NCBI RefSeq assembly: GCF_000513855.1
Contig: NZ_KI911318.1
Coordinates: 1,117,327 to 1,181,326, forward strand
DNA from: Desulfurococcus amylolyticus Z-533
GTDB lineage: Archaea; Thermoproteota; Thermoprotei_A; Sulfolobales; Desulfurococcaceae
Direction of reading: 5' to 3'
Length of the DNA stretch: 64,000 bases
Shown here piece by piece: positions 5,957 to 21,692 of the stretch. The stretch's first letter is position 1; each line of letters begins with the position of its first letter. A model generated the notes under the pieces. That model did not search any database. It saw only the letters and a program-made list of their open reading frames with translations, and was not told the DNA's origin. The translations under genes were made by a program, and so were the position numbers.

Positions 5957-9097
<3,141 letters not shown>

Positions 9098-9286: not shown

Positions 9287-10782
<1,496 letters not shown>

Positions 10783-10811: not shown

Positions 10812-10895
10812 CTGGATTACCTGGTTGGACAGCATCCACCTTCTCGTCGGATTCAAGCTTCCGGAGGGTAAGCGCCCTCCGGATTGCTTGAATCC
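10812..10895 (-). repeat. 16S leader: processing stem half and strong hairpin
   Basis: Bases 10812-10845 pair with 9224-9259 beyond the 16S 3' end to form the pre-16S processing stem, with small differences that leave bulges. Upstream of it, 10849-10895 folds into an exceptionally stable hairpin: GGATTCAAGC and CCGGAGGG pair with CCCTCCGG and GCTTGAATCC, separated by two short internal loops. Confidence 0.8.
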
Positions 10896-10944: not shown

Positions 10945-10958
10945 GTTTATATATTTTA
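10945..10958 (-). promoter_or_regulatory. rRNA operon promoter (TATA box)
   Basis: On the minus strand the bases AAAATATATAAACC form a box A. A transcription start ~25 bases downstream (near 10920) would give a leader of ~140 bases ahead of 16S. The same A/T block reads TTTATATATTTT on the plus strand, so it could also serve the divergent direction. Confidence 0.6.
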
Positions 10959-10973
10959 TGCCTCATGATCATT

Positions 10974-11099
10974 TACATGGCCATTGACTGGTTCCAGACC
11001 CACTATGGTGTGCCCGCGGCAGGAGACCGGCTTATCATTCACCGGGCTATGCTCGGCGTCAAAGCGATGCCGCCGCCGGGCAGTGCCGCGGGCCATGTA
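10974..11099 (-). ncRNA. Candidate structured RNA upstream of the rRNA promoter (strand uncertain)
   Basis: This G+C-rich island of ~125 bases in A/T-rich DNA is bounded by TACATGGCC (10974-10982) and its exact complement GGCCATGTA (11091-11099). A second perfect inverted pair lies inside: GCCCGCGGCA (11012-11021) and TGCCGCGGGC (11084-11093). On the minus strand the inner stem is followed directly by ACA, and the apical part contains CCGG-TGAATGATAAG-CCGG. These two features resemble an archaeal H/ACA guide RNA with a kink loop. It has no 5S or SRP signatures. The identification is tentative. Confidence 0.35.
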
Positions 11100-11129
11100 T
11101 CTCTATGTTTCATAAGGGTATTAATTGTT

Positions 11130-11792
11130 TTATTCGATGAGCTCTATGAGGCTCTGAACCACTGCATCCGGGCTGCATCCACTGGTGGATAGCCCTGTTC
11201 CCCTTCTGTTAACAATCACTACCCCGACCCCGGCCTGCCTGGCAGCTATGCAGTCGACTACTCTATCACCGATATATAGTGTTTCACCTGGATGCATACC
11301 AGTCATCCTCAACGCATTTAATATCACGTCTGGCTCAGGCTTTCCCCTAACACCTGGTGTCACTCCAGAAACCACGTTAAAGTACCTTGATACACCGAGG
11401 TGGTTGAGGAAAGCATTTATTCTCTCCACTATGCTTGAGGAAGCTACTCCAAGTACATAACCCTTTGAAGACAGGTATTCTAGTACCGGCACCACGTCCG
11501 GGAATAATTTAACGTGTTTACTCCAGTTCTCCCAGACAAGCCTCCTCCTAACCTCAATGAACTCCCTCGCCTTCTCCTCACTGACCCCACCCAGTATCTC
11601 GTTGAGGAGGTATTCGAGGGGGTAGCCTATCAACTCCCTGATTATGGACGGATCGACGCGTAGACCAGTGAGACGTGCTGCCTCGGTAAAGCTCCAGACA
11701 ATGAAGTCCTCGCTATCTACAAGCGTGCCATCCAGGTCGAAGAGGATTAGTCTGACACTGTTTAAAAGACTACTCACTGGAATCTTCATCAC
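11130..11792 (-). CDS. HAD-superfamily hydrolase, phosphoglycolate-phosphatase-like
   Basis: This is a 220-residue soluble phosphatase of the beta-phosphoglucomutase/Gph type. Motif I is LFDLDGTLVDSE (~residue 17), with the nucleophile and acid Asp. Motif II is VASSS (~116), motif III includes the Lys of RGKPEPDVI (~148) and motif IV is GDRVVDCIAA (~176). A helical cap lies between motifs I and II. The substrate cannot be read from sequence. The GTG start at 11792 overlaps the end of the upstream phosphatase gene by 23 bases, so the two HAD genes are probably co-translated. Confidence 0.82.
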   Translation of the reverse strand: MMKIPVSSLLNSVRLILFDLDGTLVDSEDFIVWSFTEAARLTGLRVDPSIIRELIGYPLEYLLNEILGGVSEEKAREFIEVRRRLVWENWSKHVKLFPDVVPVLEYLSSKGYVLGVASSSIVERINAFLNHLGVSRYFNVVSGVTPGVRGKPEPDVILNALRMTGMHPGETLYIGDRVVDCIAARQAGVGVVIVNRRGTGLSTSGCSPDAVVQSLIELIE

Positions 11793-12525
11793 CCATCCCG
11801 TTTAAAACACGTGAAATAATCTCGGCTAAACCAAAGCCGCTTGGAGACTCTGCAACAATATTACAGTACTTGAGTAACTCCTCATCAGAGCCGCCGACCG
11901 CAGCCCTGTAGCCGAGGAACTTGATGAAGTCTACATCCATCGCACTGTCACCTATACCCAGGGCTTCACTACTACTGATGCCAAGCTTATCCAGGATATA
12001 CTTGACTGCAACACCTTTCCCAACACCCTTAGCGTGTACGTGTATAGCGTACCCACTGTACTCGAGGGTGTAGCCTTCATGCCTTGACTCAACATACCTC
12101 TTCATCTCATTAACTATCTCGCCAGCCCTATCCAGGTATTTCCCACGCATCTTCAAAGCGTACTCGTAGAGCCTGAACCTGTTCTGCCAGGAATCCTCAA
12201 CGTATTCACCATACTTCTCAAGCAGGTCGAGGTAGACATCCCGGGCACTCATATTAGTCAGCTCCACAATACCCCATTCATCACTGTAGACTAATGCACC
12301 TGACTCACCCACGACAGGGCCATTTAACCCAATGTATCTAGAGAGCCCCACCACGATTGGTAATGCATTGCTTGAGACAAGGGACACGATCACGCCCTTG
12401 TCAACGAGTAAGCGCAAGGCCTCCACAGCCTTCAAGGCCAGCATATAACTCCTCCTATTAATGGTTAAAGTACCATCGATATCGGTGAATACTATCCTCA
12501 CCCTGATCACCCATTTACTATGCAT
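11770..12525 (-). CDS. Archaeal phosphoglycolate phosphatase-like HAD hydrolase (Cof/TA0175 type)
   Basis: This is a type IIB HAD phosphatase of 251 residues. Motif I FTDIDGTLT starts at ~residue 13, motif II VSLVSSNALP at ~47, the conserved Lys lies in AKGVGKGVAVKYIL (~170) and motif IV GIGDSAMDVDFI is at ~191. The C2-type cap lies between motifs II and III. The layout matches archaeal phosphoglycolate phosphatases resembling Thermoplasma TA0175. It overlaps the second HAD gene by 23 bases and is divergent from the hydrogenase operon. Confidence 0.8.
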   Translation of the reverse strand: MHSKWVIRVRIVFTDIDGTLTINRRSYMLALKAVEALRLLVDKGVIVSLVSSNALPIVVGLSRYIGLNGPVVGESGALVYSDEWGIVELTNMSARDVYLDLLEKYGEYVEDSWQNRFRLYEYALKMRGKYLDRAGEIVNEMKRYVESRHEGYTLEYSGYAIHVHAKGVGKGVAVKYILDKLGISSSEALGIGDSAMDVDFIKFLGYRAAVGGSDEELLKYCNIVAESPSGFGLAEIISRVLNGMGDEDSSE

Positions 12526-21591: not shown

Positions 21592-21692
21592 GGCCCGGGC
21601 CGGGATTTGAACCCGGGACCTCCGGGTTTCCACCCTCCTCATCTCGAGGGGTCCACAGCCCGGCGCTCTATCCAGGCTGAGCTACCCGGGCC
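21592..21692 (-). tRNA. tRNA-His(GTG) with 25-base intron
   Basis: On the minus strand GGCCCGGG pairs with CCCGGGCC. The first G and last C are the extra G-1 and C73 typical of tRNA-His. The anticodon loop CTGTGGA has anticodon GTG. The 3' half of the anticodon stem (CCCGG) is separated by an insert of ~25 bases after the base 3' of the anticodon. The junctions can fold as a bulge-helix-bulge, the normal archaeal intron position. Confidence 0.92.

Follow-up and report, generated by a model that had tools for sequence, protein, structure and literature searches.

The window, a stretch of 64,000 nucleotides that is part of a 1.31-Mb single-contig archaeal genome, carries on its minus strand a 16S rRNA gene at 9287-10782 and a 23S rRNA gene at 5991-9087. 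Upstream of the 16S gene lie a putative TATA box of the rRNA operon, named from its sequence (TATATAAA, minus strand, 10946-10953), a G+C-rich island and two overlapping genes for HAD-family hydrolases (11130-11792 and 11770-12525, both minus), the first of which ends 36 nt before the conserved element described here. The 16S leader contains a strong hairpin (GGATTCAAGC...GCTTGAATCC, minus, 10849-10895) that includes an inner 9-bp stem; folding of the surrounding 90 nt has a z of -4.0, hairpin-like sequences of similar layout are seen by eye between the element and 16S in many relatives, and the hairpin may be a leader processing site. Elsewhere in the window, a 100-nt tRNA at 21592-21691 (minus) is detected by Rfam (56.6 bits) and missed by ARAGORN; it probably contains an intron.

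A preliminary description of this DNA had singled out the island, which is indeed present, for two perfect inverted pairs of 9 and 10 bp with three bases in common. Both pairs are exact and in place: the 10-bp pair joins 11012-11021 with 11084-11093, the 9-bp pair joins 10974-10982 with 11091-11099, and they overlap by 3 nt at 11091-11093. It is equally correct that, on the minus strand, ACA follows the 10-bp stem, at 11011-11009 and with no gap. The folding energy of the island is unremarkable (z -2.08 on the plus strand and -1.54 on the minus strand), and the feature stands above chance because it is conserved, not because of this energy. In a DNA search, which detected the core in numerous genomes of the family, the strong alignments of other genomes fell within query positions 46-151, mostly 50-134, which correspond to window positions 11009-11093, and beyond the closest relative conservation is limited to the stretch from the 10-bp stem through the ACA.

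The outer 9-bp pair behaves differently. Compared with shuffled sequences it has a p of about 0.003 in the window, but in its two genus mates the pair is not above chance (p 0.17 in one, 0.45 in the other), and across loci p is at most 0.05 in only 5 of 102, about the chance rate; it was dropped as a part of the element for this lack of conservation. The two pairs had been proposed to compete, with the island acting as an attenuator or as a switch between two folds. Both pairs are real and they do overlap, yet the conserved unit runs from the 10-bp stem to the ACA and the 9-bp pair is not kept in relatives, which makes such a switch highly improbable.

Architecture and relatives of the conserved element

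The conserved core (11009-11093, minus strand) has, in this order, the parts of an archaeal box H/ACA RNA: a 10-bp lower stem, a long guide pocket, a GA stem, a K-turn, an upper stem and an ACA box. The lower stem P1 pairs GCCCGCGGCA (11084-11093) with TGCCGCGGGC (11012-11021), and the pocket holds a 5' guide segment, GGCGGCGGC (11069-11077), and a 3' guide segment, TCTCC (11022-11026). The GA stem, whose pairs covary among relatives, is formed by GCTTTGA (11059-11065) and GATAAGC (11030-11036), the latter contributing to the tandem G-A pairs of the K-turn; the upper stem pairs CGCCGAGC (11051-11058) with GCCCGGTG (11040-11047), and the 3-nt bulge AAT (11037-11039) and the ACA box (11009-11011) complete the set. 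Two of the features by which membership among archaeal box H/ACA RNAs is judged, a lower stem of about 9 bp followed by ACA or ANA and a K-turn with tandem G-A pairs, are both found. Of 171 distinct sequences, 168 have an ANA box, which reads ACA in 135, and 165 have a TGA, by the loose test that it may occur anywhere within 28 nt on the 3' side.

The apex had been described as a K-loop with a CCGG-closed loop. Once relatives were aligned, this gave way to a K-turn made of C-G, a 3-nt bulge and G-A/A-G, with the CCGG arms belonging to the upper stem and to the side of the GA stem; the closing C-G pair is found in 44 of 44 aligned sequences, and the T-G-A columns of the K-turn do not vary among them. 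Some details of the window's copy are less regular. Its GA stem has four Watson-Crick pairs only, plus U-U and the tandem G-A, and its upper stem contains one A-C mismatch, the only one at that pair in the alignment. According to one study, archaeal H/ACA RNAs have 14-15 nt from ACA to the GA stem, and a GA stem of about 10 layers (PMC4652768); the distance in the window is 15 nt if non-canonical layers are counted. When the window's sequence is folded by itself, the minimum free energy structure has the pocket folded differently, at -44.7 compared with -30.9 kcal/mol for the H/ACA fold. Strand was assessed by mismatch type, with 32 G-U against 9 A-C cells favouring the minus strand; a plus-strand RNA was rejected on this count and on the ACA. 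In four loci (L016, L018, L144 and L163), insertions separate the upper stem from the K-turn bulge, at times resembling a second small hairpin, and matches in relatives with insertions reach 111 nt, compared with 86 in the window.

The structure was named by hand on an alignment, A1, of 44 distinct sequences including that of the window. Of its 919 cells, 95.3% are paired, and 12 of the 21 pairs show double changes; in the lower stem 98.4% of cells are paired and 4 pairs have changed on both sides. Covariation is 0.338, compared with 0.094 after shuffling (sd 0.011; none of 500 shuffles as high), and sliding the partners leaves at most 51.4% paired, both being controls that leave the relatedness of the sequences in place. 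RNAalifold, run on a MAFFT alignment, returned no more than the lower stem, some of the upper stem and, inside the guide, three pairs that do not vary, and the hand-named GA stem goes beyond this result. Scanning named genomes for a pattern yielded 38 stretches; of these, 32 are archaeal, and the 6 bacterial ones, which have no stem and ACA, were dropped. Viral contigs gave no match.

A covariance model, R1, built from the 44 sequences scores 89.1 bits in the window's own genome, the sequence of which is among the 44. At E <= 0.01 it matches 105 of 229 genomes of the class (106 matches), or 68 of the 122 more complete ones, and at E <= 0.001 it matches 125 of 397 genomes drawn from the phylum, 75 of them outside the class; as a rule, a genome has a single match. 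The large searches ran with stricter filters, which lose weak matches. No match was obtained in 14 of 40 genomes of the host's own family, three of which (G008, G010 and G023) are 99% complete, or in the 12 listed genomes of another family, perhaps Sulfolobaceae. The 75 matches outside the class, none of which is in the model, are 91.5% paired, with double changes at 20 of 21 pairs and a covariation of 0.525 compared with 0.193 after shuffling, figures that are biased towards the R1 structure by alignment to R1. A hairpin arisen by chance in GC-rich DNA, or a piece of a coding frame, would suit a folding energy that is not extreme and a 102-aa open frame that crosses the hairpin region on the plus strand; the compensatory changes inside and outside the class, together with the constant place before 16S, bring the probability of that explanation close to nil.

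At Rfam cut-offs the island has no match. A permissive search of 451 nt returned Pab19 (RF02794) on the minus strand at 11117-11009 with 35.1 bits and an E of 2e-4, its alignment ending ...GCGGGC-ACA; this is the only significant family, the next having an E of 0.35, and an overlapping match to PyrR210 is weak (14.5 bits, E 3). Across the own genome, no other RF02794 match is listed. The curated gathering cut-off of RF02794 is 55 bits, and it is reached in none of the 40 family genomes; at E <= 0.1 the model finds 17 of the 40, with a best score of 49.4 bits. The predicted RNA is called a Pab19-like H/ACA RNA, and not an accepted RF02794 member, because the scores of all 40 family genomes lie below the cut-off.

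Predicted target in 16S rRNA

Both halves of the guide match helix 34 of the neighbouring 16S rRNA, in the region AGGAGG[UG]CAUGGCCGUCGCC (9759-9779, minus strand), where the predicted target uridine, U1010, lies at window position 9773. The 3' guide segment is complementary to GGAGG, with a G-U pair nearest the target, and the 5' segment to GCCGUCGCC, also with one G-U; the matched stretches are 6 nt apart, compared with the usual 2. The pairing is widely kept: 15 nt before the ACA, all five positions of the 3' guide pair with GGAGG, counting G-U, in 161 of 171 distinct guides, and GGCGGC occurs within the first 32 nt of 164 of the 171. The earlier suggestion of a minus-strand H/ACA RNA with a pocket matching the adjacent rRNA thus agrees with both the parts and the pairing found here.

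The rank of U1010 among possible targets varies with the way in which it is searched for. In a first scan, for which only the window's guide and a gap of 2 nt were used, the best 26 did not include U1010, and U1014 came 11th. A second scan, with 102 guides and free spacing, placed U1010 second when the ruler was 15 nt and far from the top when it was 14 nt. In a third scan, of 102 distinct guides of the class against the 630 uridines of 16S and 23S, U1010 ranked 1 if one bulge in the target was allowed, a setting that is partly post hoc, the bulge having been chosen after the pairing was seen, and 6 without it; with the bulge, U210 was a close second (34.1 compared with 34.9). The comparison of the pocket with 16S and 23S that had been proposed earlier hence gives pairing at U1010, but not uniquely there, and because the rank depends on scan settings, complementarity alone is, for these sequences, insufficient to settle the target.

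Support that is independent of pairing comes from the numbering of a published site. Pab19 is reported to modify U1017 of Pyrococcus abyssi 16S, in a pairing counted as experimentally productive (PMC4652768), and m1Psi938 of P. abyssi corresponds to position 966 of Escherichia coli (PMC7005279). Position 966 aligns to U931 in the 16S of the window, and U1010 aligns to E. coli U1052, after correction for a one-base offset in the E. coli strain used. An offset of +7 would place P. abyssi U1017 at U1010, provided that no indel lies between the anchors. Among 73 readable targets, U1010 is U in 72 and C in one, despite a retained guide; GGAGG is unchanged in 71 and altered in 2. The exception at U1010 (L195, in genome G251) has an intact guide, and a genome of the same genus (G265, L199) has U; the C is either an assembly error or a loss of the target.

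An H/ACA guide with a different main target, whether 16S U1014 (E. coli U1056), U931 (E. coli 966), U210 or U478 or a site in 23S, is unlikely, with more in its favour than any other alternative considered here. The 5' guide pairs beside U1014, leaving the 2-nt gap that is usual; if no bulge is allowed, U210, U478 and U931 of 16S and U2805 and U821 of 23S all outscore U1010, and even with one bulge U210 is close behind. The equivalent of E. coli 966 is reported to be hypermodified in P. abyssi (PMC7005279). Against these sites, the 15-nt ruler from the ACA positions U1010, and the published Pab19 site agrees with U1010 by number. U1014 is almost devoid of a 3' duplex, ranks 32 or 50 of 630, and is U in 70 of the 73 readable targets and C in 3 of the 73 genomes keeping the guide; it was rejected as a target on the missing duplex and these three substitutions.

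Taken together, we assign a probability of roughly 80% to the reading in which the minus strand of 11009-11093 is a box H/ACA guide RNA that directs pseudouridylation of the neighbouring 16S rRNA at U1010. Proteins for such a particle are encoded in the genome, namely Nop10, Gar1, two proteins of the L7Ae family and Cbf5, the last identified by its N-terminal DKCLD domain only. The match to this domain (G000:C1:1225840-1225977) starts at profile position 13, and its open frame is only 100 aa long. An intron in cbf5 is described for crenarchaea in one paper (PMC2738675), and the short frame would fit such an intron.

From the computed features, that is, structure, covariation, conservation, adjacency to 16S and protein genes, we infer a mechanism that extends to transcription, promoters, the target uridine, the enzyme and processing. 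L7Ae would bind the guide RNA at the K-turn, and Cbf5, Nop10 and Gar1 would bind the pocket and the ACA box. In 16S helix 34, UCUCC of the 3' guide would then pair with GGAGG and the 5' guide with its complement, and Cbf5 would convert U1010 (E. coli U1052) to pseudouridine.

Position before the 16S gene and putative promoters

The position of the guide before 16S is conserved. In 167 of 181 R1 matches, a 16S gene lies 74-850 nt downstream on the same strand; this holds for 98 of 106 matches within the class (111-850 nt) and for 69 of 75 outside it (74-185 nt). For 9 of the 14 exceptions the contig ends 1-262 nt past the guide (L113, L128, L140 and six outside the class), and in L173 the guide is followed by a run of N. 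Two more (L112 and L163) have no 16S within the 1.5-2 kb examined, and none was found in their assemblies. In genome G185 guide and 16S are on opposite strands, with about 510 nt from the guide to the 16S 5' end, and the G188 locus (L138), from the same genus, starts at a contig edge. One assembly, G145, has two differing copies of the guide, each before a 16S start (L109, and L186 near a contig end), with a single 16S match in the assembly, which points to a mixed bin or a second operon.

This constancy could also belong to a cis element of the rRNA leader, acting in processing, anti-termination or attenuation, and not to a free guide. A stable hairpin with 16S within 185 nt in 101 of 158 distinct loci fits such a role, which is nevertheless very unlikely: H/ACA features and guide sequences are conserved, the putative rRNA TATA box of the window lies downstream of the hairpin, and the copy of G185 stands on the other strand from its 16S.

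For the H/ACA guide, two arrangements of promoter-like sequences can be distinguished. They were sought with lists of TATA-like hexamers, which are crude, the window's own ATTAATA being absent from the list used for the 158 loci. Where the spacing to 16S is at most 185 nt (the 101 loci above), a TATA-like hexamer occurs 20-50 nt before the guide in 59, compared with 19 for a control stretch, and between guide and 16S in 12; no listed hexamer precedes the guide in the other 42. Where the spacing is greater (57 loci), 49 have the hexamer in the interval separating guide from 16S, and 10 have it upstream of the guide, compared with 4 for the control. On these counts the loci are read as two designs, with the guide placed either inside the rRNA leader or outside it with the rRNA promoter in between, a reading that covers, among the short-spacing loci, the 59 with a listed hexamer before the guide. 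Because TATA-like sequences lie mostly before the guide in short-spacing loci, the guide probably heads the pre-16S transcript there and would, in many of these lineages, form its first segment.

The window fits the second design, with TATATAAA between guide and 16S, and the placement of the island just upstream of the rRNA promoter in the preliminary description is apt for this genome, but not for many short-spacing lineages, in which promoter-like sequence lies upstream of the guide. The guide gene itself has a putative TATA box, ATTAATA (11119-11125, minus); the window shares this heptamer, 25 nt upstream of the stem, with L002 and L006, its two genus mates. The guide in the window would probably be made from its own promoter, located in the 36 nt that separate it from the HAD gene, and the rRNA promoter would lie downstream of the guide; read-through from the HAD gene is also possible. 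If ATTAATA is a TATA box, it would exclude a 5' hairpin of the kind with which the Pab19 model starts. The stretch aligned to that hairpin (11098-11117, minus; 5 of 6 pairs standard) is probably not part of the RNA, because it lies beyond the conserved core and is incompatible with a start that ATTAATA would set.

A wider scenario is offered tentatively, as one that is possible but on balance doubtful. Across many lineages of Thermoproteota, and also in Thermococcus according to one report, the guide would have belonged to the rRNA operon since ancient times, opening the primary pre-16S transcript and being freed by leader processing. Each 16S would be made together with a guide of its own, and this guide may act on helix 34 in the transcript that carries it, aid the folding of that helix and modify U1052. 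Desulfurococcaceae like this one would later have moved the rRNA promoter past the guide, uncoupling the two.

Comparison with known guide RNAs

The kind of RNA is already known; as far as the literature was searched, what is new is the member, its spread in the phylum and the two promoter designs, and no report of a guide before 16S in Thermoproteota was found among open-licence papers. The analysis extends the Pab19 kind of guide from Thermococcales to Thermoproteota, where RF02794 at its own cut-off misses it in all 40 family genomes searched as well as in the window, and predicts one pseudouridine in helix 34 for many uncultured lineages. It also indicates that a gene order, with the guide directly before its likely target, has been kept across distant archaea.

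The closest known relative is Pab19 itself, which guides Psi1017 in P. abyssi 16S. The two have the same order of parts and a long 5' strand of the pocket, the 5' side of the Pab19 model consensus contains GGCGGC and its 3' side CUCC, as here, and the targets would be equivalent by numbering if no indel intervenes. They differ in that the score is low here, in that the host of Pab19 belongs to another archaeal phylum, and in the small 5' hairpin of the Pab19 model, the counterpart of which lies outside the conserved core in the window. In Thermococcus kodakarensis, a 2014 paper (PMC4247193) describes Tko-19 as a snoRNA that directly precedes the 16S-tRNA-Ala-23S operon and is likely to lie in the 5' leader and to be cotranscribed; its name suggests a relative of Pab19. 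As in the window, that snoRNA stands upstream of the rRNA operon. It is described in one sentence, for one euryarchaeal species, in a section that gives neither target nor family, and in the window a putative rRNA TATA box separates guide and 16S.

The sR201-sR210 RNAs of Pyrobaculum are likewise crenarchaeal pseudouridine guides with a K-turn. Of those 10, 8 are reported to have no full lower stem (PMC4652768), in contrast to the 9-10 bp found here, and the 10-bp lower stem excludes a Pyrobaculum-type H/ACA-like RNA, in which this stem is truncated or absent.

A further parallel is provided by guides for 2'-O-methylation. The box C/D RNA in the intron of archaeal tRNA-Trp is a guide that is carried in the precursor of its own target. 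The short-spacing lineages would resemble it in having guide and target on one transcript, and they raise the question of whether a pseudouridine guide is made from the same transcript as the rRNA that it modifies. The two cases differ in the modification, which is 2'-O-methylation in the tRNA and would be pseudouridylation here, and in the place of the guide, which is an intron there and would be a leader in these archaea.
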